64,000 nt of DNA from Planctomycetales bacterium 10988 (GTDB lineage: Bacteria; Planctomycetota; Planctomycetia; Pirellulales; Pb10988). Below are positions 20,731 through 39,336 of the stretch, in pieces. The translations under genes were made by a program, and so were the position numbers. The notes under the pieces are model-generated. The model did no database searches, had not been told where the DNA came from, and was given only the letters and a program-made list of their open reading frames with translations. The stretch is taken from contig CP043547.1 of NCBI GenBank assembly GCA_009664345.1, positions 5,794,709-5,858,708 on the forward strand. Reading direction: 5' to 3'. How positions within the stretch are numbered: the stretch's first letter is position 1; each line of letters opens with the position of its first letter.

Positions 20731-21780
20731 ATGAGTGAAGCATCCGAGGTCTCCCCGGAATTGACCGAAAAACTTGGCGTCGCCCGAGAAAAACTTTTGT
20801 CGCAATTTGCACAAGTGATTGTGGGACAAGAAGAAGTTCTTGAGCAATTGATGATTTGTCTGTTTAGTCGAGGTCACTGTTTGTTGGAAGGGGTTCCGGG
20901 GCTGGCAAAGACTTTGATGATTAGCACCCTCGCGAGAACCCTCAATTTAAGCTTTAAACGGATTCAGTTTACTCCTGACTTGATGCCGGCGGATATTACC
21001 GGGACGGAAATTCTTCAAGAAGATCGGGCAACAGGCGCTCGTGAATTCCGATTTTTGGAAGGTCCTATTTTTTCCAATGTTGTTCTCGCGGATGAAATCA
21101 ACCGGACTCCTCCGAAAACACAAGCGGCTCTTTTAGAAGCAATGCAAGAACGGCAAGTTTCTGTCGGAAATACGCGGCATCCTTTGGCCGATCCTTTCTT
21201 TGTCTTGGCAACACAGAACCCCATTGAACAAGAAGGAACGTATACCCTTCCGGAAGCACAACAAGATCGTTTTATGTTTAAAGTGTTTGTTAAATATCCA
21301 TCGTTTGAAGAAGAGATGGAGATCGCACGGCGAACCACCGGTAAATTTTCTGACACAATCGAGCCGGTGTTAACAGGCGAAGAAATTATAGAACTTCAAC
21401 AACTTGTTCGACAAGTTCCTGTGGGTGATCATATCCTTCGTTACGCGTTACTTCTTGTTCGACAAACCCGAACCGGTGAGCCAGGTGTTCCCGGTTTCGT
21501 ACGGGAAAATGTTGACTGGGGGGCCGGTCCGCGTGCAGTGCAATATTTAATTCTCGGCGGAAAAGCTCGGGCGTTACTTTATGGGCGTTCGCATGTCACT
21601 ACGGAAGACATTCAAGCTTTGGCTTGCCCGGTTTTGCGACATCGTATTGGTAACAACTTTGCCGCGGAAAGTGAAGGCATCACTTCCGATCATATTGTTG
21701 AACGGTTGGTTAAAGAAACTCCCACGAAGGAAGATGAGTTAACAAACGATGCCCGATTCAAAACCTTATTTGCATCCTGA
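20731..21780 (+). CDS. MoxR-family AAA+ ATPase, copy 1
   Basis: Cytoplasmic AAA+ chaperone-like ATPase of 349 residues that heads the first vWA cassette. Walker A is the MoxR form GVPGLAKT (residues 54-61). Walker B is VVLADE (117-122), followed by [18 protein letters not shown]. Sensor 1 is [12 protein letters not shown] (160-171), and the C-terminal lid follows ([19 protein letters not shown]). AAGGAAA sits 6 bases before the ATG. The family typically remodels or inserts metal into partner vWA proteins, and such partners follow directly here. The gene's last 32 bases overlap the DUF58 gene. Base usage is more A+T-rich than in the large genes further downstream. Confidence 0.93.
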
Positions 21781-22651
21781 GGCAATCAGTCGGATCACAC
21801 GACTAGAAATGCGTGCCCGTCATATAGTGGAAGGTTTTCTTTCGGGAATGCACCGAAGTCCGTACTTTGGGCAATCGATTGAATTCTTGCAACACCGTGA
21901 ATATGTCCAAGGCGATGATCCTCGGCATGTGGACTGGAAAGTCTGGGCTAAGCAGGAGCGTTTTTATATTAAACAGTATGAAGAAGAGACGAATCTTCGT
22001 TGTTTGTTTTTGGTAGACGTTTCTAAAAGTATGCAGTATCAATCTGGTGCCCTTTCTAAATACGACTATGGTTGTACAGCCGCGGTGAGCTTGGCGTATT
22101 TACTTTTAAAACAACAAGACGCTGTTGCGTGTGTGCCGTTTGACGATCGAGTGCGTGCTCAACTTCCTTTTAAAAGTACGCGTCAACATTTAATGGCGGT
22201 GATTGAATCGCTGAAGACTTTAAAACCAACCGATAAAACCGGAATGTTTAAAATTCTGAAGAAAGTCGCGGAGACCTATCCTCGCCGTGGCATGGTGGTC
22301 TTGATCAGTGATTTGTTAACGGATCGCGATTCGTTAATGAAAGGTTTACGGTTATTACGGCAACGCGGTCATGATGTGTTGATTTTACATATCATGGACG
22401 ATGAAGAACTTGACTTTCCTTTCCAAGGCCCAACTCGTTTTGAAGGGTTGGAAAGTGATGATCTTTTAAATTGTAATCCGCGGGCGTTGCGTGAAGGTTA
22501 TTTAAAAGCGTTAGAAAAGTTTTTGGAAGATGTTCGTATCGGTTGTGCAAAAAATGTAGTCGATTATAAATTGATTCGTACCAGTGAACCTTTAGATGCC
22601 GTGCTCGCGACCTTCCTTTCCAATCGTTTGGGAATGCATCATCGGAATTAG
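21749..22651 (+). CDS. DUF58 family protein, copy 1
   Basis: Soluble 300-residue DUF58 protein, the usual partner of MoxR ATPases. It begins inside the end of the MoxR gene (32-base overlap), so the two are translationally coupled. The DUF58 core [28 protein letters not shown] lies at about residues 55-82, and a vWA-like strand with an intact MIDAS triad D90-S92-S94 (LVDVSKSM) follows. There is no membrane segment. Closely similar in length and layout to the copy at 45756-46652. Confidence 0.9.
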
Positions 22652-22717
22652 AATTTTTTATAACCAATATTGTATTGAAATAGAAAACTTTTTGGAGATA
22701 GAAAGCGTGGCCGACTT

Positions 22718-25054
22718 ATGCTGGAGTTTTTAAATCCGGCGCTCTTTCCATTTCTATGGCTAGCAGCGATCCCGATTGCCATCCATCTATTAAATCTGAC
22801 ACGAAGGCGTCGGGTACAGTGGGCGGCTATGGAATTTTTGCTGGAAAGCCAACGTAAGAACCGGGCCTTTGTTTGGCTTCGACAATTACTTTTATTGTTG
22901 TTGCGAATGGCGGCGATTGCGATTCTTGTATTGATTTTTGCCAGGATGGTCTTTCTGAATGATCTGACACTTCTGCAAGGGAATCAAACACATCACATGG
23001 TGATTCTTGACGATTCCTTTTCAATGAGTGCTCAAGATTCTCGTAGCGAAACGCCATTTCTTCGTGCCCAACAGGCGATCGTTCGACTGGGACAGCGGGC
23101 CGCCGATGAAGGGGGTAATCACCGTTTTACTTTGTTGAGGACTTCGCAAACGCAGCCGGATTTTCTGGAAAAGCTCGTTCAGGTGAATTTTGCCCAAGAG
23201 TTGCAACAACGCCTGGAAGAGATTTCGGTTTCTTCTCTTTCAAGCGGCCCCGAATCCGCCCTAGAACAGGCCTTGGAATGGCTGCCCACGCAAAAACAAG
23301 ATCAGAAGATTTTATACTTAGTCAGTGATTTTCGCAGCAAAGATTGGGAAGACACTCAACGGATCACTGCTTTATTGCGAGAGTTCGAGCAAGAAAAAAC
23401 GAAGCTCGTTTTGATTCAGTGTGAAGGTGCCCCGCCGGCGAACTTGTCGTTAAGTTCGTTGCGTTCGGTGAGTCGGACGTTGGTGGCCGATGTGCCGCTT
23501 TTCTTGGAAGTCGCGGTTACGAACTTTTCGCAAGACCCGCAAACCGATGTTGAACTTCTTATTTATGAAGACAATACGTTGCGACCGGGTTCGCGAATCG
23601 ATTTGATTCCGCCTGGCGAAACGCGGACCAAACGCTTCCAAGTCCGTATCCCGACTGCTGGCAATCATACCGTTCGCGTGGAATTGCCGAACGATTCGAT
23701 CTCGCTGGATAATGCCCGTGAGACCGTTTTGCAACTTCCGCTGGCGATCAAGACACTGTTAATCGATAGTTCGCCCGATGGCCGCAATGCCCGCTATGTG
23801 CAATCCGCTCTCGACCCCGGTGGCAATACCAAGACGGGGAATACCACGCAAATCGAACTTCCGGGCTTCTTGAATAGCAATGACCTCTCCGAATTTCAGG
23901 TGATTTATCTGACGAATGTCGGCCAGCTCGATCCACCTGCGATTGAACAGTTGGAAGACTTTGTCAAAGCAGGAGGCGGGTTAGGCATCTTTTTGGATGG
24001 GCAGTCGAAAGCCGAATTCATTAACACCCAGCTTTATCGAAACGGAGAAGGTTTCTTTCCGGCTCCTTTGAGTGAACCGTCCAAGACGTTGATGGATCAG
24101 TTGCAAGAACGCTTTCCTTTTGGCATTACGCCGGTTTTGCAACGGAGATGGGAAGAGTTGATGTTGGCTCAAGATGAAAATCTCCCCGATGTGCAGCGAT
24201 CGGTTCATCCGATTTTCGAGAGTTTTGCCGAGGAACGAAATTCCTTGCTCGATTTGGTTCGCATCGATCATCTTTGGCGACTCGATCCGGAGTGGGAAGC
24301 CGGTGTCAACAATCGAACGACAGTCGCTGCCGAGGGGCGGATTCCGGAAATCACCGTCTTCGATCCGAATGCGGAGAATCCGATTCAGTGGACAAGCCGC
24401 TATGTGCCTTTGGTTCTGGATCGCCCGTTCGGGGATGGTCGGGTCGTGAGCGTCATGTCTTCGGCGAGTACCGTTTGGAATAATTGGGCACGCAACCCAA
24501 GCTATGTGTTGATGCTGTTGGAAATGCAGTCCTATCTGGCCGCTCCGACGGAAGGAACCATCACCCGTCAAGTTGGTCAGCCGCTGGTAGTAGAATGGGA
24601 TGCTGCTGAATTCTTTCCCGAACTCGACATCGAACGCTTCCAAGAAGGGGCTCTTGAAAACAGTGTCGAACTCGCCGGGGAGGCCGCGAATGACGAAGGC
24701 GATCGTTTGGGCGTTCGCTACGATAGCACGTTTGATCCGGGGATTTATTCCGTCGCTTTACGGCCCATCGATGGGAGTGAGCGATCGCTGAAGACCTTTG
24801 CTTACAACGTCAATCCAACCGAAGGGAACTTGCAAACCGTTTCGAGTACGCAGCTCGCCACGATTATGGAAGGGATCACGTACACCTTCACGCGAGCGGG
24901 GGCCTTCCGAGGTTCCGATGCCGATGGCGGCGATATTAAACTGTATGATCTGTTGCTTTATTGGCTGGTGATTTTACTACTGCTTGAACAGACTTTTGCC
25001 TACTTTCAGAGTTATCATCCTCCGGCGACCGCTGGAGTCGAAGGAGTTAGTTAG
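22718..25054 (+). CDS. BatA-like membrane vWA protein, cassette 1
   Basis: Membrane protein of 778 residues. The N-terminus (LNPALFPFLWLAAIPIAIHLL) is the BatA-type membrane domain, and a second hydrophobic helix lies at about residues 56-80. A vWA domain follows with an intact MIDAS sequence D98-D-S100-F-S102. The middle region (about 410-460, LEDFVKAGGGLGIFLDG) looks like a class I amidotransferase-like fold without recognised catalytic residues. A C-terminal helix (LYDLLLYWLVILLLLEQTF) returns to the membrane. The ATG at 22718 has no well-placed ribosome binding site; GGAG at 22694 is better spaced for a mini-frame at 22707. The stop is immediately followed by the next ATG. Confidence 0.85.
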   Translation: MLEFLNPALFPFLWLAAIPIAIHLLNLTRRRRVQWAAMEFLLESQRKNRAFVWLRQLLLLLLRMAAIAILVLIFARMVFLNDLTLLQGNQTHHMVILDDSFSMSAQDSRSETPFLRAQQAIVRLGQRAADEGGNHRFTLLRTSQTQPDFLEKLVQVNFAQELQQRLEEISVSSLSSGPESALEQALEWLPTQKQDQKILYLVSDFRSKDWEDTQRITALLREFEQEKTKLVLIQCEGAPPANLSLSSLRSVSRTLVADVPLFLEVAVTNFSQDPQTDVELLIYEDNTLRPGSRIDLIPPGETRTKRFQVRIPTAGNHTVRVELPNDSISLDNARETVLQLPLAIKTLLIDSSPDGRNARYVQSALDPGGNTKTGNTTQIELPGFLNSNDLSEFQVIYLTNVGQLDPPAIEQLEDFVKAGGGLGIFLDGQSKAEFINTQLYRNGEGFFPAPLSEPSKTLMDQLQERFPFGITPVLQRRWEELMLAQDENLPDVQRSVHPIFESFAEERNSLLDLVRIDHLWRLDPEWEAGVNNRTTVAAEGRIPEITVFDPNAENPIQWTSRYVPLVLDRPFGDGRVVSVMSSASTVWNNWARNPSYVLMLLEMQSYLAAPTEGTITRQVGQPLVVEWDAAEFFPELDIERFQEGALENSVELAGEAANDEGDRLGVRYDSTFDPGIYSVALRPIDGSERSLKTFAYNVNPTEGNLQTVSSTQLATIMEGITYTFTRAGAFRGSDADGGDIKLYDLLLYWLVILLLLEQTFAYFQSYHPPATAGVEGVS

Positions 25055-27556
25055 ATGGGGCCATTCGCCCAATTGTCACCTGATATAGCGACCGATTCGG
25101 CAGGCGAACTTTCCGACTCGTTAAGCTCGACCGCTCAAGAGACATTGCGGGAGACGTTCGAATACGCACGCATCCCCACTTCGCCGCTGGAGTGGTTGTT
25201 GCTTACTTTGGTGGTCATCGGCATCACGCTCTTTGTCATCTTTGCTTATCGCCGCGACTGTGCCGAGTCGCCGGGCTGGTTGGCGGTGATTCTTGTCGGA
25301 TTGCGATTGGCGGCCTTGGTCGGTTTGCTGCTCGTTTGGCTTCAGCCGCAAGCTCGCATCGAACGCCGGATTCAAGAGGATTCCGTCGCCGCGATTATCG
25401 TGGATACAAGTCTGAGTATGGGGATGCAGGATGATCCCGAAAACCCGACGTATGCCCCAACGCGAAGTGAAGAGATTCAAGAAGTTCTCGCCAAAAGCCC
25501 TTTGGTCCAGCAGTTGAGAAATCGCCACGATGTGATTGTTGCGACCTTTGGCCAAGACATTCATGAAGTGGTTCGTTGGAAGCGTGATACCGGGGAGACT
25601 TCGCAACCTGCCTCCTCTACGGAAGCTGAAGAAGGCGATACCCTCCCGCTGGAGCTAACCCCGGAGACGATGGATTGGCAGGCAACCCTTGATCCCAAGG
25701 CTCCGGAAACCCGCATCGGGCAAGCGTTGCGGCAATTGATTTCCGAACATCGGCAAGATCGCCTTGTCGGGGCAATTCTCTTTTCGGACGGACAACACAA
25801 CGCCGGGGTCGGGCTCGCTCCTGCGATTCGACTTGCCAAGGAACATGAAGTCAAAGTGCATACGGTCGGGGTTGGTTCGATGCGGACCCCGATCAACTTA
25901 CGAGTGGCCGATTTGATCGCTCCTTCGCGAGCTTACCCTGAAGATGACTTCGAATCCTCTGTCTTTGTGGTAGGGCAAGGTTTGGGCCAAGAACGTGTGG
26001 CGGTTGAGCTTTATTCGCAGCCAGCCGATAACATCGGGGTGGAGCCGAAGTTAGAAGGGAGTCGCGAGACGGTCTTGCAGCAAGATGGCGAACCGGTGGA
26101 AGTTTCCTTTCAACTCAAAGCGGAAGGTCCAGGCCGACGGACCCTGACCGCGAAAGTTCGCCCGGTGCAGGGAGATTACAATCCCCGCGATGATCAAATG
26201 CAGGCGGATGTGGAAATCGTTGAACGCCGCACTCGGGTGCTCTTGTTCGCCGGCGGGCCAACGCGGGAATACCGCTTTCTCCGCAACCAACTTTTCCGCG
26301 ATAAAGAATTTGAAGTCGATGTCCTTTTGCAAACGGCTCAAGTCGGCATCGCCCAAGAGGCGGACCACATTTTAGATGTATTTCCCAACTCCGCCACGGA
26401 AATGGCCGAGTACGATTGCGTTGTGGCGTTCGATCCAGAATGGGATGGCCCAGGGATCACGCCTGCCCAGATCGATCTTTTAGAACAATGGGTCGCGGAG
26501 CAATCCGGCGGGCTGTTGGTCGTCGCCGGTCCGGTCTATACCGAGGAATGGGTCAACGACACCCGCATGGCCAAAGTTCGTTCGCTCTATCCGATCCAGT
26601 TCAGCCGCCACCATGCCTTGCTCGATGCGAGTCGTTTTGAAAACCGGGAGCCTAGCCCGATCCTTCTCACGCAAGAAGGGATGGAAGCGGATTTCCTGTG
26701 GTTGGAAGATAATGCGGTGGAAAGTCGCGATGCGTGGCATGATTTTGATGGGGTCTTCGGCTTTTATGGAGTCCGTGAGCCGAAGCCTGCCGCGACGGTT
26801 TACGCCCGTTATCAAGAGACGGAGAATCTCCCCGAAGATGAACAGCCTATCTACTTTGCCGGACAATTTTATGGTTCCGGTCGGGTCTTTTATATCGGAA
26901 GTGGTGAGATGTGGCGGCTGCGGAGTTTGGCGGTGGCCTACTTCGAACGCTATTATACCAAGCTTCTCCGGCATCTTTCCGAAGGCCGGTTGTTGCGAGG
27001 TTCTCGCCGTGGAGTGCTGTTGGTGGAACGCGAACGCTACCTGCTTGGGCAAACCGTTGTCGTCAGGGCACAGCTGAATGATTCCCAACTTCGCCCGCTG
27101 GAAGTGCCGAGTGTTCCGCTCGAAGTGGTGCTTCCCGACGGCACGCTCTTTCCCCAAGTGACCTTAGTGCCTGATCAAGGCGACCGACCGGGAATGTATA
27201 CCGGGCAGTTCGTCGTTCGCGAAGAAGGGGAATATCGGTTGAACCTCAATGTGCCGGAAGCGGGCGACGAAGGCCTGCTCAGCCGTCGCTTGCAAGTTCG
27301 TATCAGCGATCAGGAGCGGGAGCGACCCCAACTCGATCGGGTGCGTTTGCAAAGTTTGGCCGAAGAAACCGGCGGTACTTATGTCGAAGGGGCGGCCAAA
27401 GCCCCGGAACTGGTGGAACTGCTCCCTTCGCGGGCTCGTATTCGCTATCAGAAAGATCGCCCCGAACCGTTGTGGGATTCTCCATGGATTATGGGAACGA
27501 TCTGTGGCTTGTTGTGTTTAGAATGGTTATTGAGGCGTTGTTTCAAACTCGCCTAA
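25055..27556 (+). CDS. Membrane vWA/amidotransferase-like protein, cassette 1
   Basis: Membrane protein of 833 residues that starts directly after the previous stop codon. Two N-terminal helices (about residues 47-66 and 76-96) precede a vWA domain with MIDAS D117-T-S119-L-S121 (IIVDTSLSMGM). A beta-rich segment follows, then a class I glutamine-amidotransferase-like fold (about 440-640, LLEQWVAEQSGGLLVVAGP). A C-terminal helix ends the protein (PWIMGTICGLLCLEWLLRR). No catalytic Cys was recognised in the amidotransferase-like part. The same architecture recurs at 48870-51116. Presumed to act with MoxR and DUF58 at the envelope; the substrate is unknown. Confidence 0.83.
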   Translation: MGPFAQLSPDIATDSAGELSDSLSSTAQETLRETFEYARIPTSPLEWLLLTLVVIGITLFVIFAYRRDCAESPGWLAVILVGLRLAALVGLLLVWLQPQARIERRIQEDSVAAIIVDTSLSMGMQDDPENPTYAPTRSEEIQEVLAKSPLVQQLRNRHDVIVATFGQDIHEVVRWKRDTGETSQPASSTEAEEGDTLPLELTPETMDWQATLDPKAPETRIGQALRQLISEHRQDRLVGAILFSDGQHNAGVGLAPAIRLAKEHEVKVHTVGVGSMRTPINLRVADLIAPSRAYPEDDFESSVFVVGQGLGQERVAVELYSQPADNIGVEPKLEGSRETVLQQDGEPVEVSFQLKAEGPGRRTLTAKVRPVQGDYNPRDDQMQADVEIVERRTRVLLFAGGPTREYRFLRNQLFRDKEFEVDVLLQTAQVGIAQEADHILDVFPNSATEMAEYDCVVAFDPEWDGPGITPAQIDLLEQWVAEQSGGLLVVAGPVYTEEWVNDTRMAKVRSLYPIQFSRHHALLDASRFENREPSPILLTQEGMEADFLWLEDNAVESRDAWHDFDGVFGFYGVREPKPAATVYARYQETENLPEDEQPIYFAGQFYGSGRVFYIGSGEMWRLRSLAVAYFERYYTKLLRHLSEGRLLRGSRRGVLLVERERYLLGQTVVVRAQLNDSQLRPLEVPSVPLEVVLPDGTLFPQVTLVPDQGDRPGMYTGQFVVREEGEYRLNLNVPEAGDEGLLSRRLQVRISDQERERPQLDRVRLQSLAEETGGTYVEGAAKAPELVELLPSRARIRYQKDRPEPLWDSPWIMGTICGLLCLEWLLRRCFKLA

Positions 27557-27631
27557 CGCAACCGAGCCAACCGCTGAAAATATCAAAACTACTTTTTGAA
27601 ACTTGTGTTTCGCCATAGAGAAAACGAATTC

Positions 27632-29908
27632 ATGAACGATCGTCCGCAATGGCTTTATCTGAATCGCACTTTGCAACGTCCTCTGCGTCGTTTGGCAAGG
27701 ATGATTCGTATTTATGTTGTCCTGCAAGGCTTGGCGATTCTGGCGGCGTTCCTCGGTCTGGCGTTTTGGATCACGTTTTGGCTGGATTGGTTGTTGGAGC
27801 TTCCATGGTCCGCCCGTTCGACGATGCTGGGCGTCGTGGGCATTGTTTCCTTGCTCATTCTCTGCTTCGGGATTTTGTGGCGGGTTTTTGCGAGACTTTC
27901 CGAGCGGGGTCTGGCGGTAGTCCTCGAACGGCGGTTTCCGACTTTTCATGATGCCTTACTGACCACGGTAGAGTTGCGACCGCAGCAGTCACTTGGCGAC
28001 TACAATCCGCAAATGCTCGAACTGGCCGAACGGGCCGCCATGGCGGAAGCCGAACGGATTCAAGTTTCAAAGGCGTTGAATTTCGGGCCGCTGCTCATTC
28101 CGTTATATTTGTCCTTTGTCCTGGCCGGCACGATTGTCGGGTATGCCTTTTTCCGTCCGCACTATTTTGATGTGTATGTTGCTCGCGATTTGATGTTGCA
28201 AACCGGAGTGCAATGGCCACGGTCGATCTTGCTGCATGTCGTGGAGCCAGAGTCCTTGGCGGAAACCGGTCTGGCGAAAGTGGCCAATGGCGAGGACTTG
28301 AACTTGATCATCCGCGCCGAAAAAAATCCTTTGTTTGAACAAGTCGAATATCCGCGGTACATGACGATCGACTATCAAGCCCAAGAGCAAGAGAGCGAAG
28401 GAAGCGAGGGAATGACGCTCGAAGGGGACCCGGATGCCGAAGGCCAACGCTATGCCTATCAATTCACCAGTCTCCTCAAGGATGAATACAACATTCAAAT
28501 TTATGCCGCCGATGGGAAGCTAGAGGATTTGAAGATTCAAGTCGTCGATAGCCCTTCCACCACCGAGATGCGGCTGTTGTGTCAATATCCTTCTTATACC
28601 GGATTGCCAAGTCCGCATGAGTTGCCCGTGACCGGCTCGACCAGTTTGCCGTATGGCACGAAAGTCACGCTCGTCGCCGGAGTCAACAAGCCGCTCATTC
28701 ATGCTCGCATCGATTTTGAAAATCCCGACAGCGAAACCGAGCAGGGCTTTGCTTTTCTTCGCGATGATGGTTTGGGCTTCACTTCGGAATTTCGCATGGA
28801 TGAATCGAAGCAAGTCCTGTTGACGCTGACCGACCTAGATCGGATTGAAAGTCGCGAACCGGAACGATTTTCGATTACCATGAAGAAAGATCAATCGCCG
28901 GAAGTCGATGTGCAAACAACGGGCATCGGGCGGCTCATTACCAATAAAGCCGTGATTCCGTTTGAAGGAACACTCCGCGATGATTTCGGGATGACGAAAA
29001 CTTGGTTTGGCTATACCATTGATGCAGGAGAAGCTGAGCAAAAGCCAACGTTGAAACAACCGGTTGGCTCGACCGACTTGGAAATCAATGAAGGATTCGA
29101 AGTCAATGAACTGAACCTGGAGCCGGGGCAGACATTGACTCTCAAAGTACAAGCGGAAGACAACTACGAGGAATGGGAAGAACCTTTGCCACAACAAGGG
29201 AGTAGCTCCCCGATTCCTTTTGAAATTGTGACCGAAGATCAACTCCGTTCGCAGCTTGAACTCCGGGAGTTACGCTTGCGGGAGCGTTTCGAAGCAATCG
29301 TGGCCGAAGTCATTCAACAGCGAGAGATCGTCGCGACCTTGGCTGCCGCTGAGCAAGCAACCGAAATCGAAGAAGAGATCGATGCCGAAGGCGATCTGGA
29401 AGAAGCGGAAGAAATCGCGGAAGTTCGCGAAGAAGCCGTTCCTTCCGCCCAAGCGAATCAGCTTTTGGAAGTCCAACGAGCGGAACAAAATGGCTTGAAG
29501 AATTCCAGCGAGATCCTCGGCGTTGCGGATGCCTTTGAAGACATCGTCGATCAATTGCGAAACAATCGCATTCAAACGGAAGAACTAATCGTGCGACTGT
29601 TGGACGACATTGCCAAGCCGCTGACGGAGATCGCCCAAGAAGACTTCGACGAACTCGATCAGCAGTTGAAAGCCCTGGGCCGTCGGGTTTCGCAAGGCAG
29701 TGCGACTGAGGAAGAGATCGCCGCGACCGTGATTCAATACGATACCATCTTGTCCGAAATGCGAACGGTGCTCAATCGAATGCTAGAGTTGGAAGACTTC
29801 AACGAAGCCCTGGCGATGCTCCGCAGCATTATCGAACAACAAGAAGATTTGCGAACCGCCACCCAAGAAGAACGCCGCCAGCAAGTCCGGCGTTTCCTCT
29901 TTGATTAA
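27632..29908 (+). CDS. Membrane protein with coiled-coil C-terminus (DUF4175-like)
   Basis: Membrane-anchored protein of about 758 residues. Two hydrophobic helices lie near residues 27-52 and 58-84, a third near 152-170. A large extracytoplasmic beta-rich region comes next, and the last 200 residues are strongly charged and predicted coiled coil (REIVATLAAAEQATEIEEEIDAEGDLEEAEE). The overall pattern recalls DUF4175-type proteins found beside MoxR/vWA clusters; I infer this from architecture, not from a diagnostic motif. The ATG at 27632 is preferred over a TTG at 27596. The next gene starts 13 bases downstream. Confidence 0.7.
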   Translation: MNDRPQWLYLNRTLQRPLRRLARMIRIYVVLQGLAILAAFLGLAFWITFWLDWLLELPWSARSTMLGVVGIVSLLILCFGILWRVFARLSERGLAVVLERRFPTFHDALLTTVELRPQQSLGDYNPQMLELAERAAMAEAERIQVSKALNFGPLLIPLYLSFVLAGTIVGYAFFRPHYFDVYVARDLMLQTGVQWPRSILLHVVEPESLAETGLAKVANGEDLNLIIRAEKNPLFEQVEYPRYMTIDYQAQEQESEGSEGMTLEGDPDAEGQRYAYQFTSLLKDEYNIQIYAADGKLEDLKIQVVDSPSTTEMRLLCQYPSYTGLPSPHELPVTGSTSLPYGTKVTLVAGVNKPLIHARIDFENPDSETEQGFAFLRDDGLGFTSEFRMDESKQVLLTLTDLDRIESREPERFSITMKKDQSPEVDVQTTGIGRLITNKAVIPFEGTLRDDFGMTKTWFGYTIDAGEAEQKPTLKQPVGSTDLEINEGFEVNELNLEPGQTLTLKVQAEDNYEEWEEPLPQQGSSSPIPFEIVTEDQLRSQLELRELRLRERFEAIVAEVIQQREIVATLAAAEQATEIEEEIDAEGDLEEAEEIAEVREEAVPSAQANQLLEVQRAEQNGLKNSSEILGVADAFEDIVDQLRNNRIQTEELIVRLLDDIAKPLTEIAQEDFDELDQQLKALGRRVSQGSATEEEIAATVIQYDTILSEMRTVLNRMLELEDFNEALAMLRSIIEQQEDLRTATQEERRQQVRRFLFD

Positions 29909-29921
29909 TTGGAGAGTTCTC

Positions 29922-31808
29922 ATGCAGTCAAGCAATCCCCGAGCTAGGCGATTTCGCACTCGCTTGCCCCTTTCGCCCTGGTGGCTATTGTCGCTTGTTT
30001 TAGGAATCTCGCTTTCCGTGCCGGGCCTGCTCGTCGCTCAGGAAGAAGGCGAAGCCGCGGAAGCTGCGGAAAAGGAAGCAAGCGCCGAACTCGCCGCCCA
30101 GCAGCAGCGTTTAGCGGAAACCTATCAACGCTTCGAGTTGATTCTCGAACGCATGGCCGAACTCAAAGCCGCCGATGAACCGGCTCGAGCGGGGCTTTTG
30201 CGGAAAGCCCTCGAACAAAGTAAGGAAGGGCTGATCGGTCAGCGGATGCTAACCTTGATCAAAATGTTGGAAGACGACCGCCTGGCCGAATCGCTCAAAA
30301 ATCAAGAAGCCCTCTCTTCGGACCTCAAAAATATTCTCACGTTGTTGTTGAGTGAGGATGAAGAAAAGCGGAAGCAGGAAGAAAAGAAAAAAATCCAAGA
30401 AACGATCAAAGAGATCTCCCGGCTGATCAAAGATCAAGAAGGATTGCAAAATCAAACCGAGGCGACCAGAGAACTGGCCAAGCTCGCCGAAATGCAAGCG
30501 GAACTCGCCAAGCAAGCCGGTAGAGTCGTCGATGGCATGAACCCTGACGGGAAGCCCGGCGAACAGAGCGATGCGGAATCGAAGGAAGGTTCCGAAGAAG
30601 GGAAGGAAGGCCAAGAAGGAAAAGAGGGCGAATCAAAAGAAGGAAAAGAAGGCGAGTCCTCCGACAGCGAATCGCAATCCTCTTCTGAATCGGAAGGAAA
30701 AGAGGGAAAAGAAGGCGAGTCCAAAGAAGGCGAAGATTCAAAGTCGAAATCGAAAGAAGGCGAATCCAAAGAGTCCGAGAGTAAAGAATCCGAATCGCAA
30801 GAAGGTTCTGAAAGCCAATCCAGCGAAAGTTCCAGCGAGTCGCAAGATTCGCAATCCAGTGAATCTTCTCAATCGCAGCCTTCGGAATCTTCCCAAAGCC
30901 AAGGACAGCCCAGCCAAGGTTCCGAATCGCAACAGAGCGAACAAGAGCAACAGGCCCAAGCACAGCAAGCCCAACAACCGCCTCAACCGGGCGAACAACG
31001 GCTGGCCGAAGCTCAGCAGAGGATGGAAGAGGCCCAGAAGAAACTGGAAGAAGCGAAACGAGATGGAGCGATTGAGGAGCAGGAAGAAGCCCTTCAAGCC
31101 CTCCGCGAAGCCAAGGCCGAACTCGAACGCATCCTCCAACAGATGCGGGAAGAGGAAATGAAACGAACCTTGGCCATGCTTGAACAGCGTTTTAAACAAA
31201 TGCTGGAAATGCAGGTGGAGGTTTACGAAGCGACCGCCGTGCTGAATCAAGTTGAATTGGAACTCCGCGATCGGAACTTCACCATTCAAGCGAGTTTGCT
31301 CGGTCGCGAAGAAAACAACATCGTCTTGGAAGCCGAACGAACTTTGACCTTGCTGCAAGAAGAAGGTTCCGCCGTCGCCTTCCCGGAGGTCCTTTCGCAA
31401 ATCCTCGATGATATGCGGACCGTCACGACGCGGCTGCAAGGTGCCCAAGTCGGGAAAATGACCCAAGGCATCGAAGAGGATATCATTGAAGGGTTGGACG
31501 AAATGTTGCAAGCCCTTAAACAAGCACAAGAGGACATGGAAGAAGATCAGCCACCTTCATCGCCACCGGGTGGAGGTCAGCAAGGCGGCCCGCAAGAACA
31601 GCCGTTGATCGATGTCTTGGCCGAACTTCGCATGATCAAATCGTTGCAAGAACGCGTCAACCGGCGAACCGACCGTTACCGGGAGATACTCGATGATCTT
31701 CAGCAGGCCACCGATCCGGAAATTCAAGCGGAACTCCAAGAACTCGCCATTCGTCAAGGTCGCATTTATCGCGTTACCCGAGATATTGTGGTTGGAAAGA
31801 ACCGATGA
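29922..31808 (+). CDS. Exported Ser/Glu/Lys/Gln-rich low-complexity protein
   Basis: Exported protein of about 628 residues of unknown function. GGAGAG lies 5 bases before the ATG at 29922. A signal peptide or anchor (WWLLSLVLGISLSVPGLLVAQ) is followed by helical Glu/Lys/Ala-rich sequence. A low-complexity tract of about 150 residues (about 205-360) is built from KEG, ESKEG, SES and SSQSQ units. Then comes a long coiled coil (about 360-435) and a Gln/Pro/Gly spacer before a helical C-terminus. The tract looks unstructured and highly charged, as in cell-wall- or polymer-binding proteins. It overlaps the next gene by 4 bases. It has no counterpart in the second cassette. Confidence 0.75.
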   Translation: MQSSNPRARRFRTRLPLSPWWLLSLVLGISLSVPGLLVAQEEGEAAEAAEKEASAELAAQQQRLAETYQRFELILERMAELKAADEPARAGLLRKALEQSKEGLIGQRMLTLIKMLEDDRLAESLKNQEALSSDLKNILTLLLSEDEEKRKQEEKKKIQETIKEISRLIKDQEGLQNQTEATRELAKLAEMQAELAKQAGRVVDGMNPDGKPGEQSDAESKEGSEEGKEGQEGKEGESKEGKEGESSDSESQSSSESEGKEGKEGESKEGEDSKSKSKEGESKESESKESESQEGSESQSSESSSESQDSQSSESSQSQPSESSQSQGQPSQGSESQQSEQEQQAQAQQAQQPPQPGEQRLAEAQQRMEEAQKKLEEAKRDGAIEEQEEALQALREAKAELERILQQMREEEMKRTLAMLEQRFKQMLEMQVEVYEATAVLNQVELELRDRNFTIQASLLGREENNIVLEAERTLTLLQEEGSAVAFPEVLSQILDDMRTVTTRLQGAQVGKMTQGIEEDIIEGLDEMLQALKQAQEDMEEDQPPSSPPGGGQQGGPQEQPLIDVLAELRMIKSLQERVNRRTDRYREILDDLQQATDPEIQAELQELAIRQGRIYRVTRDIVVGKNR

Positions 31809-32920
31809 ACCTCACACAATTATATGATTGCAATTCGCAAAACCGCTGGCGATGTCGCGTTTCCTTGACGTTCGCTTTCGTCGGAACTATGCTGCTTGCC
31901 GCTTCCCCAGCCCTGGCACAGCAAGCCCCGGAGGAGTTGGAGAAGCAGTACACTTTCTATCCCCTACCCACTGAGGAAATCGGCCCTCGCTTGGAAAATT
32001 GGCTCGAGTCGCAACCTCTAGCGGAGCCTGCACGGCAACAAGCCCGGAAAGTATGGGAAGCCTTGGCCGAGGAAAGTGATGCTTCCGCTCGACTCAAGCA
32101 ACTGGTCCTTTCCGTTGCTCAGGTGAATGCCGAAGTCGAGAGCGTCTATCAGCTCTGCATGCAACCTCGGCAGTCGATTATCCTTCCCGATTTGACTTGG
32201 CTGCAAGAGCAGGATGCGAAGGATTTTGTGTGGGGAAACGTCCGGCTCTTTGTCGGTCAGTGGCTCGCCCGGCACCGTTATTATGATCATAGTTCGTTGA
32301 TGCTCGAAGGCATTTCTCATGACCAATTGATCGATCCGGCGAGTTTCTTTTTCTCCGAAGCCGTTTGCTTCCAACAACTGATCAAACAGAAAGAAGCCCT
32401 CGCCGCGATTGATCGTCTTCTGGAAGAAACCGCTGCCTGCCCCGAACGATATCGCCAAGTCGCCATGTTGATGAAAGAGGATATTTCCAAGCTTGAGGAA
32501 GAATCGCTAGATCATATCGCCCGGCAGATGGCCGACAGTCAACGTCGTCTCGAATTGGCCCAAGCGACTCCTGAGATCGATGTGACCCAACAAGTGCAGG
32601 ATAATATTGTCAATTCGCTGGAGCAGATCATCAAGAAACTGGAAGAGCAGCAACAACAGCAAGCTGGCGGGGCCGCACCAGGCTCGGCCAATGGGAATCG
32701 ATCGCTTCAGCCCGCGAATGAAAGTACACCGGCCGGAGGGGGCGGACCAGGGGAAGTCGGACCTCGCGACTTGAAACCGGGTGAGCAATGGGGAGAACTT
32801 CCACCCAAAGAGCGAGAGCGAGCCATTCAACAAGCGGCCAAGAACTTTCCTTCTCACTATCGAGAAGTCATTGAACAGTATTTCCGTAAAATCGCCTCGG
32901 AGCCTGCCCGCGACGAATAA
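31805..32920 (+). CDS. Exported protein of unknown function, last gene of cassette 1
   Basis: A 371-residue exported protein, translationally coupled to the previous gene (ATGA overlap). The signal peptide is VSLTFAFVGTMLLAASPALAQ (ending about residue 39). The body is helical and has TPR-like character (residues 50-250). A poly-Gln/Gly/Ala linker follows (about 278-320), and the conserved-looking end reads PKERERAIQQAAKNFPSHYREVIEQYFRKIA. No catalytic motif is evident. Its position ending a MoxR-vWA operon suggests an extracytoplasmic accessory subunit. Confidence 0.72.
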   Translation: MNLTQLYDCNSQNRWRCRVSLTFAFVGTMLLAASPALAQQAPEELEKQYTFYPLPTEEIGPRLENWLESQPLAEPARQQARKVWEALAEESDASARLKQLVLSVAQVNAEVESVYQLCMQPRQSIILPDLTWLQEQDAKDFVWGNVRLFVGQWLARHRYYDHSSLMLEGISHDQLIDPASFFFSEAVCFQQLIKQKEALAAIDRLLEETAACPERYRQVAMLMKEDISKLEEESLDHIARQMADSQRRLELAQATPEIDVTQQVQDNIVNSLEQIIKKLEEQQQQQAGGAAPGSANGNRSLQPANESTPAGGGGPGEVGPRDLKPGEQWGELPPKERERAIQQAAKNFPSHYREVIEQYFRKIASEPARDE

Positions 32921-33176: not shown

Positions 33177-34352
33177 GTGATTTCTCCGTGGCTGGCAATG
33201 CTCGTTCTGACTACGACTCCTTCAGTCGATGTGATCACGTTGCAGAACGAGTTCTCTGGGAATGTTCAACAGATTTCCGCGGACGGCATTCAGCTGGAAA
33301 CCGACACGGACACCCAAGAGATCGCCTGGCGAGACTTGCTTCAACTCGATTTTGATCGAACCGCACGACCGCCCTCTGCTGGGGCAGAAGTCCGTTTGAC
33401 CGATGAGACAACGCTCAAATCCAGTTCACTTTCGATCGCGGACTCGGTCCTCTCTTGCCAACTGGCAGATTCTCTCACCGCCAAGGTTCCCGTCAAAGGC
33501 GTTCGTTCGATTCTCTTCGGGGAATTGAATGAGACTCTAACCCCGCAATGGCAATCCATTCTCCAGTCCAAGCCGACCACCGATTTGCTGGTCATTCAAA
33601 AAGGTGAGACCCTCGACTATCTCGAAGGAATCATCGGGAAGATGGACGAAACGACGATTGAATTTACTTTGGAAGGGGATGAGATCCCCGTTCCGAAAGA
33701 TCGCGTCTTCGCCTTGGTCTATTTTCAAAACATTGCCCCCAGTAAGCCCCCGACGATCTTGGGATATCTGCAAGACACCGCAGGCAACCAATTTACGTTG
33801 GCCAAAGTAAGTTGGAAGCCAAGTACTCCCGACTCACTTTTGAGTTTAGAAACCATTGCGGGAATGCGCGTTTCGGTTCCGCTGGAAACGGTCGTTCGTA
33901 TTCGCGGAAGTGTGGAATATCTAAGTGATTTTGAACCGCTCAACGTCAAAGTTGAGCACCCGGTCCCGCTCCCTTATACGCAATGGGAGCCTCAACGGGA
34001 TCGCCATTTCTATGGGGGACCGCTACAAATAGGTGAGACGGTCTATCGCAAAGGGCTTTCGCTGCATAGTCGCACTAAGATCGAATATTATCTCGGTGGG
34101 AAATATCGTAAGCTCTTGGGCTTTGCCGGAATTGACCAGGCGGCCTCCGATAGTCTCGGGAACGTGCGACTGGTGATACGCGGCGACAACCGGATTCTGC
34201 TGGAAGCGGAACTCTTGGTTTCCGATCCCCAACCCGTTGAACTGGACCTGAATCTTGCCAAGGTACAACGCCTGGAAATCTTGGTCGATTACGGCGAAGG
34301 CAACGACACGGGTGATCACGTCTGCTTAGGAAATCTGAGGTTAATCAAATGA
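33177..34352 (+). CDS. Exported NPCBM-domain protein
   Basis: A 391-residue protein starting at GTG 33177 with AAAGGAAG 5-7 bases upstream. A short hydrophobic N-terminus (SPWLAMLVLTTTP) may act as a signal peptide. The N-terminal two thirds are beta-rich with no named domain. The C-terminal 140 residues match the NPCBM/NEW2 carbohydrate-binding type: HFYGGPLQIGETVYRKGLSLHSRTKIEYYLGGKYRKL, then AGIDQ...GNVRLVIRGD and a closing VDYGEGNDTGDHVCLGNLRL. Its stop overlaps the start of the HtrA-like protease by 4 bases, so the two are made together and may act together outside the cytoplasm. Confidence 0.8.
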   Translation: MISPWLAMLVLTTTPSVDVITLQNEFSGNVQQISADGIQLETDTDTQEIAWRDLLQLDFDRTARPPSAGAEVRLTDETTLKSSSLSIADSVLSCQLADSLTAKVPVKGVRSILFGELNETLTPQWQSILQSKPTTDLLVIQKGETLDYLEGIIGKMDETTIEFTLEGDEIPVPKDRVFALVYFQNIAPSKPPTILGYLQDTAGNQFTLAKVSWKPSTPDSLLSLETIAGMRVSVPLETVVRIRGSVEYLSDFEPLNVKVEHPVPLPYTQWEPQRDRHFYGGPLQIGETVYRKGLSLHSRTKIEYYLGGKYRKLLGFAGIDQAASDSLGNVRLVIRGDNRILLEAELLVSDPQPVELDLNLAKVQRLEILVDYGEGNDTGDHVCLGNLRLIK

Positions 34353-36091
34353 AGCGGTTTGCAGGATGGATCGTTGTTCTTACCGTGTGGCTGAGTTGGA
34401 ATCTCTCCACACAGGCGGCCGCTCCCGAAGTCTTGGAAGCGGAAGCAGCCCGAGTTGCCGTCATTCAAAAGGCGATGCCTGCGGTGGTCGCGATCTTCGG
34501 CGGAGCCGGTGATGGTGGCGGTTCCGGCGTCCTGATCTCGCCCGACGGCTATGCTTTAAGCAACTATCACGTCACCAAACCAGCGGGAAATGCCATGAAA
34601 TGTGGGCTTCCCGATGGCAAACTCTATGATGCGGTGATCGTCGGCATTGATCCGACTGGAGATGTCGCCTTGGTCAAACTCTTGGGACGCGATGATTTTC
34701 CCTATGCCGAAATCGCCGATAGTGACCACGTCCGCGTCGGGGACTGGACTTTTGCGATGGGAAATCCATTTCTACTAGCGACCGACTTCACCCCGACGGT
34801 GACGTACGGGATTGTCTCCGGGATTCATCGTTATCAATATCCTGCCGGCACCCTTTTGGAATACGCGGACTGTATTCAAGTCGATGCTTCCATCAACCCA
34901 GGGAATTCCGGCGGCCCGCTCTTCAATGCAGAAGGCCAACTGATCGGAATCAACGGTCGCGGTTCGTTTGAAAAGCGAGGTCGCGTCAATGTCGGCGTCG
35001 GCTACGCAATTACCATCAATCAGATTCAAAACTTTCTCGGCCATCTTAAAAGTGGACGCGTGGTAGACCATGCGACCTTGGGAGCCCGGGTCGGAACTTC
35101 CCCCGATGGACAAGTCATCGTGACCGATATTCTCCAATCGGCGGATGCCTATCGTCGTGGACTTCGTTATGGAGATGAAATCGTTCGCTTCGCCGATCGG
35201 CCGATTCGCACGGTCAATCAAATGAAAAACGCATTGGGTATTTTCCCCAAAGGTTGGCGAATCCCCCTTGTTTACCGTCGAGATGGAAAACGACATCGGA
35301 TCTTTATCCGTCTTGAAGGGGTCCACCGCTCCGGAGAATTGCAAGAACTTTTGGCAGGCCCGCGTCGCCCGATGATGCCCCAGCCGAAGCCCGACGAGGA
35401 AGATGAAGCCCCCGATCCCGAAATGCCGGCAGGTCACGAATCTTCCCCGATGCCAGAAATTGCCAAAGCCCACTATGAATCCAAAGCTGGTTACGCCAAT
35501 TACTATTTCAATCGGCTTCAGCAAGAAACGGTTTGGCAGAATTTCTTGCAATACGGCGACTTCCAAAATCTGCGAGGCAATTGGAATATGACCGGTTCGA
35601 CCGATCAAGGCCAGCCGGTGGTTTTTGATTTGGAAACGGAACAAGCGATCGCCATGCTCCCGACCGGAAATGCGAATATCCCGATCACGGTCGATCTTTC
35701 CGCCGAGTTGCGGCCGTTGGGAAGTGGGGGGCTGTTGCCGGCTCTAGTGATTTGGAAACATTTGTTAACACATGGCATTACCGAATTTGGTCCGCTGTAC
35801 TATTTAGGGACTGCCCCGCTGCCGGAGGATGACGTCCGCTATCATGTATTGATCGGCACCTATTCCCGCGTAGAGGCCCATTTTTACTTCCATCCGGAAA
35901 CAGGCCAGTTGGTGAAATTGGAAACCTTTCCGGAAGATGATACAGACCCTTGTGAGGTCTTCTTTTCGGATTATGCGGAAGTCGAAGGCCGCTCGGTGCC
36001 CCATCGGTGGGAAGTTTATCATGCGGATCAACGCTTTGGGACCTATACCTTTACAGACTTCCATTTAGAGGCCCAAGCGGATTATGAATAA
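34349..36091 (+). CDS. HtrA-like (S1C) serine protease with PDZ domain, catalytically intact
   Basis: Exported trypsin-like protease of 580 residues. After a signal peptide (about residues 1-24) the protease domain keeps the full triad: H74 in SNYHV, D105 in PTGDVALVK and S187 in NPGNSGGPLF. One PDZ domain follows (about 235-310, ILQSADAYRRGLRYGDEIVRFADRP). The last 200 residues form an extra beta-rich domain of unknown type that contains repeated aromatic residues. Translationally coupled to the NPCBM gene and followed by two inactive relatives. Probable role is envelope protein quality control or regulated processing; the extra domain is unusual for DegP/HtrA proteins. Confidence 0.9.
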   Translation: MKRFAGWIVVLTVWLSWNLSTQAAAPEVLEAEAARVAVIQKAMPAVVAIFGGAGDGGGSGVLISPDGYALSNYHVTKPAGNAMKCGLPDGKLYDAVIVGIDPTGDVALVKLLGRDDFPYAEIADSDHVRVGDWTFAMGNPFLLATDFTPTVTYGIVSGIHRYQYPAGTLLEYADCIQVDASINPGNSGGPLFNAEGQLIGINGRGSFEKRGRVNVGVGYAITINQIQNFLGHLKSGRVVDHATLGARVGTSPDGQVIVTDILQSADAYRRGLRYGDEIVRFADRPIRTVNQMKNALGIFPKGWRIPLVYRRDGKRHRIFIRLEGVHRSGELQELLAGPRRPMMPQPKPDEEDEAPDPEMPAGHESSPMPEIAKAHYESKAGYANYYFNRLQQETVWQNFLQYGDFQNLRGNWNMTGSTDQGQPVVFDLETEQAIAMLPTGNANIPITVDLSAELRPLGSGGLLPALVIWKHLLTHGITEFGPLYYLGTAPLPEDDVRYHVLIGTYSRVEAHFYFHPETGQLVKLETFPEDDTDPCEVFFSDYAEVEGRSVPHRWEVYHADQRFGTYTFTDFHLEAQADYE

Positions 36092-36190: not shown

Positions 36191-37291
36191 GTGCAATCTC
36201 TTTGGATATCTCGAACAGGTAAGATTCAACCGGCCAGCTTTCGAGCTGTGCGGCTGGTGTTCTTTCTCCTGATGCTTCTTTCCTGTGGACTCTGGATCGG
36301 AAGTAATCCTCTCTTCGCTCAGGCGAATTTCTACCAAGATGTCTTTGTCCAAAGTCGGAACCGCATGGTCAAAATTTATGGGGCCGGCGGATTTCAAGGG
36401 CTAGAGGCTTACCAAACCGGTTGTTTGATTTCCGGCGAAGGGCATGTCTTGACGGTTTGGAGTTATGTCCTTGATACCAATTACATCACGGTGGTTCTTG
36501 ATGATGGTCGGCGTTATGAAGAGGCCGAACTTGTCGGAGCCGACCCTCGCCGCGAGATCGCGATTCTCAAAATCAAAGGCGAAAACTTTCCACACTTCGA
36601 TCTTTCTCAGTCAGCCCAGGCCAATGTCGGCAGCCGCGTCGTCGCGATGAGTAATCTATATGGAGTCGCTACCGGAAACGAACCGGTCAGCGTGCAACAT
36701 GGGGTGGTCGCCGCGAAGGCCCCGCTCAATGCCCGCCGAGGAGTTTTCGAAACGCCTCTGCAGGGCGATGTTTATGTTCTGGATGCCATGACCAATAACC
36801 CCGGTGCGGCTGGTGGAATCGTTCTCAATCGTGAAGGAAAACTGTTGGGGATGCTCGGGAAGGAATTGCGGAGTACTTTGAACAATACTTGGCTGAACTA
36901 TGCGATTCCCTTTGATTCCGATTTTCAAGAAACCGTCGAGCTGATCAAGCAAGGGCAATATGTGCCGGCCTCGATCGATCCAGAGGCGGAGCTTCCTCCT
37001 TATCCTCTGACTTTAACTTCCCTCGGAATCGAGCTGGTTCCGGATGTCGTCCAACGTACGCCGCCGTTTATCGATTTTGTCTATGAAGGTTCTTCCGCCG
37101 CCGAAGCTGGCCTGGAACCGGGGGACTTGATCATCTTCTTGGATGGACAATTGATTCAATCCTGTAAGATTTTGCAAGAAACGATTCGTCGGATCGATTC
37201 GACGGAGGATGTCTCGCTGACCATCACCCGAGGGAATGAACTGCTGGAATTTGAACTCTCCGGATCTTTGTTAAATACCATTGGACCTTGA
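36191..37291 (+). CDS. HtrA-like pseudo-protease with PDZ domain
   Basis: Exported or anchored protein of about 366 residues with the trypsin-like/PDZ layout, but every catalytic position is changed. Aligned to the upstream protease, His becomes S91 (GHVLTVWSYV against GYALSNYHV), Asp becomes E122 (DPRREIAILK) and Ser becomes A207 (NPGAAGG). The surrounding fold motifs are kept, so it is a conserved inactive homologue rather than a decaying gene. A PDZ domain lies near residues 290-340 (EGSSAAEAGLEPGDLIIFLDGQ). A GTG at 36191 with GTGGAGA 7 bases upstream is preferred over TTG 36161; a hydrophobic helix follows at residues 20-43. Likely a regulatory or scaffolding partner. Confidence 0.82.
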   Translation: MQSLWISRTGKIQPASFRAVRLVFFLLMLLSCGLWIGSNPLFAQANFYQDVFVQSRNRMVKIYGAGGFQGLEAYQTGCLISGEGHVLTVWSYVLDTNYITVVLDDGRRYEEAELVGADPRREIAILKIKGENFPHFDLSQSAQANVGSRVVAMSNLYGVATGNEPVSVQHGVVAAKAPLNARRGVFETPLQGDVYVLDAMTNNPGAAGGIVLNREGKLLGMLGKELRSTLNNTWLNYAIPFDSDFQETVELIKQGQYVPASIDPEAELPPYPLTLTSLGIELVPDVVQRTPPFIDFVYEGSSAAEAGLEPGDLIIFLDGQLIQSCKILQETIRRIDSTEDVSLTITRGNELLEFELSGSLLNTIGP

Positions 37292-37359
37292 GAGGAAGCC
37301 TTTCCCTCCTTGTCAATTGCCGTCTTTGTGTTGTTGCTTGTTAGAAATGATGGTGTGTC

Positions 37360-39336
37360 GTGAACCGATTTTTTTCGATGTTGCTTCTCCTTGTTGCTTT
37401 TCTGAGTGCCACGGCGAGTTCGGCACAAGAGCCGATCGGAGGCCTTGAGGAAGAAGCCTTTCAACAAGCGATGCAGAACGTCGCCCCTTCCGTGGTGAAG
37501 ATCGATACCATTGGGGGCTTAGAAACGACCGGCTCCGGACGCAATCAACTCCGCATCGGCACCGGTCCAACTACCGGACTTCTGTTGAACGCGGATGGCT
37601 ACATCATCACAAGTTCCTTCAATTTCATCCAAAAGCCGTCACAAATCCTTGTCACCCTGGACCTTGGAAAACGCTTCCCTGCCCAAATCATTGCGACGGA
37701 TCACAGCCGCCTGTTGACCTTATTGAAAATTGAGATCGAGCCTGCCCTTCAAAACCAGATCCTCGAACCGGAGCCGGTTCCCGCGGAAGAAGTCGAAGTT
37801 GGGCAGTGGAGTCTAGCGATCGGACGCACCTTTCCGGTCGCTCAACCGAATCTTTCGGTCGGGATTCTAAGTGCCAAGAACCGCATTTGGGGAAAGGCCC
37901 TCCAAACGGATGCGAAGATTTCACCCAACAATTACGGCGGCCCACTGATTGATATTCAAGGCCGGGTTTATGGGGTCCTTGTTCCGCTTTCTCCATCACA
38001 AGATCAAGGGATCGCCGGGGTGCAGTGGTATGACTCTGGGATCGGCTTCGCCGTGCCGATTCAGGATGTCTTGCGAACACTCTCTCTGTTGCAATCTGGC
38101 GAAGACCTCTATCCGGGGCTGATTGGAATCGCATTCGCGGGGAAGAATGAGCTTTTTGATCCCCCGTTGATCTCCGTGGTTCGTCCTCAATCTCCTGCGA
38201 ATGAAGCGGGCTTGCTGCCTGATGATGTGATTCTTGCGGTCGATGGGGTCAAGGTTGAATCCATTCGCGAACTCAAGCAGCAAATCGGTCCTCGATACGC
38301 TGGGGAAACCTTGACATTCACCTATCTGCGAGACGATGCTGAGCAAAAGACCAAACTCACCTTGGCTCAAGAGCTATTGCCTTACGAACATCCCTTCTTG
38401 GGAATTTTGCCTGTTCGCGGAACGACGGAAAATGCTGGCCTGCCCATTCGCTATGTCTACGCGGAAAGTCCTGCCGCGGATGCGGGTTTGGAAGTCGGGG
38501 ATTTAATGCTTTCCATCGCGGAGCAACCTGTCACGACGTTGGAGGAAGCCCGTGAGCAAATCAATCGTCTTAAGGTGGATGTCCCTTGCGAGGTTACCTT
38601 TCAACGATCAGGAAAAACGGAAGTGGCCACGGTAAAGTTGGCTTCGTTGCCAACAGAGATTCCTGAGGAACTCCCTCCGATTCTTCGACAACCTCAGCCT
38701 GCGGACCCCAATGGTCCAGCGACTGGCTTGTTGACCGGACAGAAGATTCCTGAGTTCCCGCACGAATATACTTTCTATGTTCCAGCAACCTATCAAGTCG
38801 AGGAACCGGCTGGCCTCTTGGCTTGGCTGACTCCGCCTGGGGAAGAGGTCGGAGATGACTTGGTCGCCCAGTGGAAAGACTTTTGCGAGGAACGAAACTT
38901 TTTGCTGGCGATCCTTTCACCGGATTCAGCGGAATCTTGGCAACCGACGGAAGTCAATTATCTCAAGAAAGTCTTGGGAGAACTTGAAAACCAATATGCC
39001 CTCGATCCGCATCGCATCGCGGTCGCTGGTTGGCGGTCCGCTGGGGCAATGGCTTTTCTCTGGACCTTTCAAGATCGTGAGCGAATCCAAGGACTGATTG
39101 CTTGCGAGTCCCCGCTTGTCGGATTTCGTCCCGAGGACAATATGCCGGAAATGCGGTTGGCCATCGCCATGGTCCATGACCCCGAAGGTCGCCGCGTCGA
39201 AGCCATCGAAGGAACGATCGAGGCCTTGCAGGTCCGCAAATATCCCCTGACCATTCTCAACCAATCCGAGCCGAGCCTCACGGACCTCAACCAAGAGGCT
39301 CTTGGGCGGTGGCTGGATTCCCTCGATCGACTCTAA
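37360..39336 (+). CDS. Second HtrA-like pseudo-protease, double PDZ, hydrolase-like C-terminus
   Basis: Exported protein of 658 residues from a GTG at 37360 that leads straight into a signal peptide (SMLLLLVAFLSATASSAQ). The trypsin-like domain is inactive by sequence: the His position is F87 (DGYIITSSFN), the Asp position is L118 (DHSRLLTLLK) and the Ser position is Y192 (SPNNYGGPL). Two PDZ domains follow (about residues 260-325 and 340-415). After a Pro-rich linker, residues about 465-658 resemble an alpha/beta-hydrolase or esterase domain, with DPHRIAVAGWRSAGAMAF carrying a Ser (S560) at the elbow. Whether this domain is active is unclear because the elbow departs from GxSxG. The GTG has no strong ribosome binding site. 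Confidence 0.78.
   Translation: MNRFFSMLLLLVAFLSATASSAQEPIGGLEEEAFQQAMQNVAPSVVKIDTIGGLETTGSGRNQLRIGTGPTTGLLLNADGYIITSSFNFIQKPSQILVTLDLGKRFPAQIIATDHSRLLTLLKIEIEPALQNQILEPEPVPAEEVEVGQWSLAIGRTFPVAQPNLSVGILSAKNRIWGKALQTDAKISPNNYGGPLIDIQGRVYGVLVPLSPSQDQGIAGVQWYDSGIGFAVPIQDVLRTLSLLQSGEDLYPGLIGIAFAGKNELFDPPLISVVRPQSPANEAGLLPDDVILAVDGVKVESIRELKQQIGPRYAGETLTFTYLRDDAEQKTKLTLAQELLPYEHPFLGILPVRGTTENAGLPIRYVYAESPAADAGLEVGDLMLSIAEQPVTTLEEAREQINRLKVDVPCEVTFQRSGKTEVATVKLASLPTEIPEELPPILRQPQPADPNGPATGLLTGQKIPEFPHEYTFYVPATYQVEEPAGLLAWLTPPGEEVGDDLVAQWKDFCEERNFLLAILSPDSAESWQPTEVNYLKKVLGELENQYALDPHRIAVAGWRSAGAMAFLWTFQDRERIQGLIACESPLVGFRPEDNMPEMRLAIAMVHDPEGRRVEAIEGTIEALQVRKYPLTILNQSEPSLTDLNQEALGRWLDSLDRL

Follow-up and report, generated by a model that had tools for sequence, protein, structure and literature searches.

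Two ancient pseudoproteases kept beside an active HtrA-like protease in Planctomycetota

Why should a bacterium keep, directly behind a working protease gene, two further genes for the same fold in which every catalytic residue has been replaced? The question is raised by three neighbouring genes, here called A, B and C, in a stretch of 64,000 nucleotides (the window; contig CP043547.1, positions 5,794,709 to 5,858,708) of Planctomycetales bacterium 10988, whose genome comprises 6.65 Mb on one contig. The reading that we prefer, with a probability of roughly 0.5, sees A, B and C as one ancient group of exported proteins, a working HtrA protease with two pseudoproteases, whose genes close a MoxR/Bat-type run; B would be a non-catalytic partner and C an adaptor.

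The ORF list held A, B and C as three tandem neighbours on the forward strand (Table 1). A consisted of a signal peptide, a trypsin-like domain, one PDZ domain and a C-terminal domain of about 250 residues of unknown family (35336-36088), which was conserved within the taxonomic order and had no Pfam match. B, with an ambiguous start at TTG 36161 or GTG 36191, comprised a signal peptide, a dead trypsin-like domain and one PDZ domain. C carried a signal peptide, a dead trypsin-like domain, two PDZ domains and a dead alpha/beta-hydrolase-like domain. The Sec-like hydrophobic signal sequences at the three N-termini were read by eye from the sequence, and all three proteins are presumably exported. 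The last 4 bp of the NPCBM gene overlapped the beginning of A. A site scan revealed no terminator-like site in the A-B and B-C gaps; shuffled sequence contained promoter- and terminator-like sites at least as often.

Table 1. Features of the A-B-C locus and its upstream neighbours, in window positions
Feature	Position	Strand	Evidence
Conserved upstream run: MoxR-type ATPase, DUF58, BatA, VWA protein and three more genes	20731..32920	+	Gene order kept across the taxonomic order
NPCBM-domain protein upstream of A	33177..34352	+	PF08305 2.3e-23; conserved neighbour
Gene A, active HtrA-like protease	34349..36091	+	ORF; Trypsin_2 1.6e-31; PDZ_2 4.1e-5
A catalytic His74	34568..34570	+	Alignment of triads
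A catalytic Asp105	34661..34663	+	Alignment of triads
A catalytic Ser187 (GNSGG)	34907..34909	+	Alignment of triads
Gene B, pseudoprotease	36191..37291	+	ORF; Trypsin_2 1.2e-18; AlphaFold pLDDT 86.9
B Ser91 replacing catalytic His	36461..36463	+	His missing in 58/58 (order), 33/33 (class), 21/21 further sequences
B Glu122 replacing catalytic Asp	36554..36556	+	Glu 48/58 (order); Asp 29/33 (other families of class)
B Ala207 replacing catalytic Ser (NNPGAAGG)	36809..36811	+	Ala 47/58 (order)
B PDZ domain, residues 276-356	37016..37258	+	PF00595 9.3e-8
Gene C, double pseudoenzyme	37360..39336	+	ORF; Trypsin_2 2.6e-14; AlphaFold pLDDT 91.5; Foldseek DegP/DegQ
C Phe87 replacing catalytic His	37618..37620	+	Phe 90/110
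C Leu118 replacing catalytic Asp	37711..37713	+	Elsewhere Met, Lys, Gly and others; Asp never
C Tyr192 replacing catalytic Ser	37933..37935	+	Tyr 109/110
C two PDZ domains	38116..38640	+	PDZ_2 in two stretches, 5.1e-27; extent of the second is approximate
C esterase-like (alpha/beta-hydrolase) domain lacking the nucleophile	38716..39333	+	Profile match to esterase 3wyd

The HtrA/Deg family (S1C) is recognised by a trypsin-like fold followed by PDZ and by a His-Asp-Ser triad. Fold and domain order were found in all three proteins with Pfam, and for B and C also with AlphaFold models searched by Foldseek/VIA; the triad was present in A and missing throughout from B and C. Scores against TIGR02037 were 217.8 bits for A (E-value 2.4e-64), 115.8 for B and 174.3 for C, all below the curated NCBIfam cut-off of 416 bits. 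The models of B and C resembled DegP, DegQ and DegS, and the best PDB matches of the B model were DegQ and DegP. The shared fold that a preliminary description had read from the three adjoining trypsin-like/PDZ genes was thus borne out by Trypsin_2 and PDZ matches in each of them and by the models of B and C.

Aligned triads separated a live A from a dead B and C. No full triad was found in 112 copies of B or 110 copies of C, and A was intact in every complete copy. Within the taxonomic order, all readable copies of A held His and Asp (56/56) and Ser (58/58), B had Ser in place of His in 55/58 and the Glu and Ala of the window as listed in Table 1, and Tyr replaced the catalytic Ser of C in 56/57. 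In 33 genomes of the class drawn from four other families, A was intact in all 33 and C always held Tyr, while B lacked His throughout, had exchanged Ser for Ala or Gly in 30/33 and usually retained Asp, so that the change from Asp to Glu in B is specific to the order of the window. Among 20 genomes fetched from outside the class, Tyr was present in all copies of C and the Ser site of B never held Ser. One A copy (G284) read without His; its match was broken into two parts, which suggests a frameshift or an error of sequencing at that place. Across all 112 B sequences, Ser occurred at this site in three, each without His. The substitutions given in the preliminary description (His to Ser/Phe, Asp to Glu/Leu, Ser to Ala/Tyr) were exact, and a dead pattern recurring in about 110 loci is not due to chance.

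The age of the dead sites was read from a tree of 75 sequences, built by a quick method without bootstrap, in which A, B and C each fell on one side of a branch with SH-aLRT values of 100, 99 and 100. Since each forms one clade, the dead sites are ancestral; as the classes were intermixed inside each clade, the dead states would most simply predate the split of several Planctomycetota classes. Median dN/dS in 43 within-genus pairs (dS < 2.5, pairs non-independent) was 0.050 for A, 0.053 for B and 0.095 for C. That B and C of the window have lost all three catalytic residues would also be expected of decaying copies of A, a reading left with next to no probability and rejected here: dN/dS was about 0.05-0.1, the ORFs were full-length, the substituted residues were conserved and widely retained, and the dead state was ancestral to single clades. 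Maintenance as pseudoproteases, proposed earlier, was therefore upheld: in the planctomycete alignment no orthologue of B or C with an intact triad was found, the sites stayed dead, the genes stayed together and no decay was seen. Sites dead since before the class split, combined with strong selection, suggest that the dead proteins help or control the live A.

Gene order was preserved through the taxonomic order and widespread in the class. The order sample comprised 57 genomes, that of the window and 56 others of Pirellulales; A and B were each present in 56, and a loose cut-off detected C in all 57. The run DUF58-BatA-VWA-27596-29901-31805-NPCBM-A-B-C was kept wherever the contigs or fetched stretches of this order reached. 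Among 80 named loci, A lay immediately 5' of B in 71/71 and C immediately 3' of B in 71/72 with room for it. In the class, 198 genomes held A 147 times, B 149 times and C 148 times. Apart from a few incomplete genomes, those missing A, B and C coincided (family f21, f25, G016 and G232). A phylum sample of 199 genomes contained B in 32, of which 21 were outside the class, and A-B-C stood in order in 20/20 of the fetched out-of-class genomes having B. The set is old and wide and, with B undetected in most of the phylum sample, far from universal. Hidden divergent B orthologues were sought in ten genomes without the set and rejected: the best B-profile matches were almost all ordinary active HtrAs, and nearly all of the best 30 examined showed a GNSGG/GSSGG Ser motif, with one (L342) giving no motif readable by the pattern used.

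Joint retention was also seen where the genes were unlinked. Two single-contig genomes (G175 and G074) held A, B and C far apart, and in two others (G119 and G223) A and B adjoined while C lay elsewhere. This is the stronger point, because adjoining genes can be removed by one deletion. That A and B act side by side and in equal numbers was best supported by in-frame A-B fusions in three genomes, G275, G268 and the second, paralogous set of G046 (L144); in all three the fused B had lost its own signal sequence and its site was dead. No fusion involving C was seen in the loci examined. Rate covariation indicated the pairs A-B and NPCBM-C. The A-B correlation had a partial r of 0.52, dropping to 0.24-0.27 in some subsets, and that of A and C was weak and unstable; as the signals of both indicated pairs weakened when divergent families were omitted, rate covariation is a hint only.

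C differed in its C-terminal part. Its last 206 residues (453-658) fitted esterase profiles (3wyd 1.4e-11, 8daj 1.2e-9), and the position of the esterase Ser was occupied by Arg559 (codon 39034-39036). The GxSxG nucleophile Ser was present in 0/36 sequences of the order and 1/33 of the class. With this nucleophile lost as well as the protease site, C is a double pseudoenzyme. Relatives carried Gln, Glu, Lys or Gly at the nucleophile position, and the esterase-like domain was missing from C in several genomes.

The role of B would most likely be that of an obligate partner without catalysis of its own, which, as a subunit of mixed A-B oligomers for instance, would assemble, activate or position A. 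For C, the plugged protease site, the two PDZ domains and the dead esterase-like domain would best fit a ligand-binding adaptor or scaffold of A's pathway; its Tyr site and extra domains may also serve a role separate from A. The fold, the dead sites and their age, purifying selection, gene order, co-occurrence and the A-B fusions are what the data show; export, physical contact among the three proteins and the direction of regulation we infer. The suggestion of the preliminary description that the dead proteins are subunits of a hetero-oligomer or decoys thus stays plausible, for B with the backing of the fusions, unlinked retention and joint absence, and for C with a weaker link to A, seen in the lack of fusions, in a C detached in several genomes and in a weak, unstable rate correlation.

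How tightly the three proteins would be joined can be read in two further ways. At one end, A, B and C might be obligate subunits of a single hetero-oligomeric HtrA machine, linked to the adjoining MoxR/Bat-type genes, with only one cutting subunit type of three. We regard this as doubtful. At the other end, B and C may act on their own as exported PDZ binding proteins or chaperones that use the fold only as a scaffold and share the pathway of A with no control of its catalysis. The separation of C from A-B in several genomes, the lack of a stable A-C rate correlation, and the two PDZ domains and second dead domain of C argue for this possibility, which fits B poorly given the three A-B fusions and a presence and absence shared with A even where unlinked; overall we consider it rather unlikely.

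Other readings give the altered sites a new chemical use. A role in metal binding is known for MamO, itself a dead HtrA domain (PMC4794232); the MamO protease domain fitted the B model (Z 23.2, rmsd of 2.5 across 187 residues), and a Tyr fixed in 109/110 copies of C suggests a positive role. On these grounds B, C or both could have taken on the binding of a particular small ligand or metal, in the way that MamO binds transition metals, yet ordinary active HtrAs fitted the B model as well as MamO did, and this appears improbable. The same near-invariant Tyr192 is what would favour B or C as an enzyme that works by another catalytic mechanism. The His and Asp partners in C are now non-catalytic residues, however, and its esterase-like nucleophile is lost too, leaving very little room for such an enzyme.

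HtrA proteases are commonly regarded as homo-oligomers, and DegP, DegQ and DegS are active homo-oligomers. B and C resemble these S1C proteases (MEROPS), which were among the top structural hits of either model, in their trypsin-like and PDZ domains, and differ from them in the missing catalytic residues. Rings that mix an active enzyme with a catalytically dead paralogue are known from ClpP/ClpR. AdoMetDC is likewise paired with its dead paralogue prozyme (PMC5201418); the folds in both cases are unrelated to A-B-C and provide an analogy only. For human HTRA1, activity is seen in mixed trimers that include an inactive S328A subunit; this subunit, without catalytic Ser, can restore the activity of the others (PMC11252331). 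Those are engineered variants of one gene, unlike the natural separate genes A, B and C.

The closest described case is MamE/MamO of magnetotactic bacteria, where the same gene region encodes a pseudoprotease as well as an active HtrA-type protease, and dead duplicates are retained. MamO is required for MamE-dependent proteolysis and activates MamE non-catalytically, although physical interaction of the two was not detected (PMC4794232). One dead protein accompanies MamE, in contrast to two dead clades, B and C, beside one active A. B and C also differ from MamO in having PDZ domains and no TauE domain, a C-terminal TauE-like domain giving no Pfam match in either. Against the NCBIfam MamO model NF040961, B scored 46.4 and C 29.3 bits, short of the cut-off of 800, and the match to the MamE model was far under its cut-off. 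As to essentiality, the main text of a transposon study of Planctopirus limnophila (PMC10632474) names no gene of the set. In the literature searched, with most subscription papers outside its scope, no description was found of two dead clades kept with one active protease across much of a phylum. HtrA pseudoproteases as such are already known from MamO. A-B-C arose before several planctomycete classes separated and keeps two dead relatives with one live enzyme under comparable selection; it would be a natural test of dead subunits controlling a protease, and it gives a handle on the poorly understood MoxR/Bat-type run of Planctomycetota. If true, a hetero-oligomeric A-B-C machine would be a counterpart, across much of the phylum, of rings mixing active and dead subunits.

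Several observations concern the wider neighbourhood. A second, paralogous set was present in three genomes, G007:C12 (L105), G025:C778 (L123) and G046:C3 (L144); those in L105 and L144 had their own VWA, 27596-like, 29901-like and NPCBM genes. A contig labelled Candidatus Nealsonbacteria (L158; JABMRB010000139.1, 1-5359) held NPCBM-A-B-C, 31-55% identical to the window, and is probably a wrongly binned planctomycete contig. The MoxR/DUF58/BatA/VWA run (20731-32920) was conserved; several VWA paralogues occurred per genome, and tested genomes without A-B-C matched the VWA protein only at paralogue level. The protein encoded at 29901-31808 contained a long low-complexity stretch rich in Glu, Ser and Lys, and its rate was correlated with those of the adjoining VWA genes.
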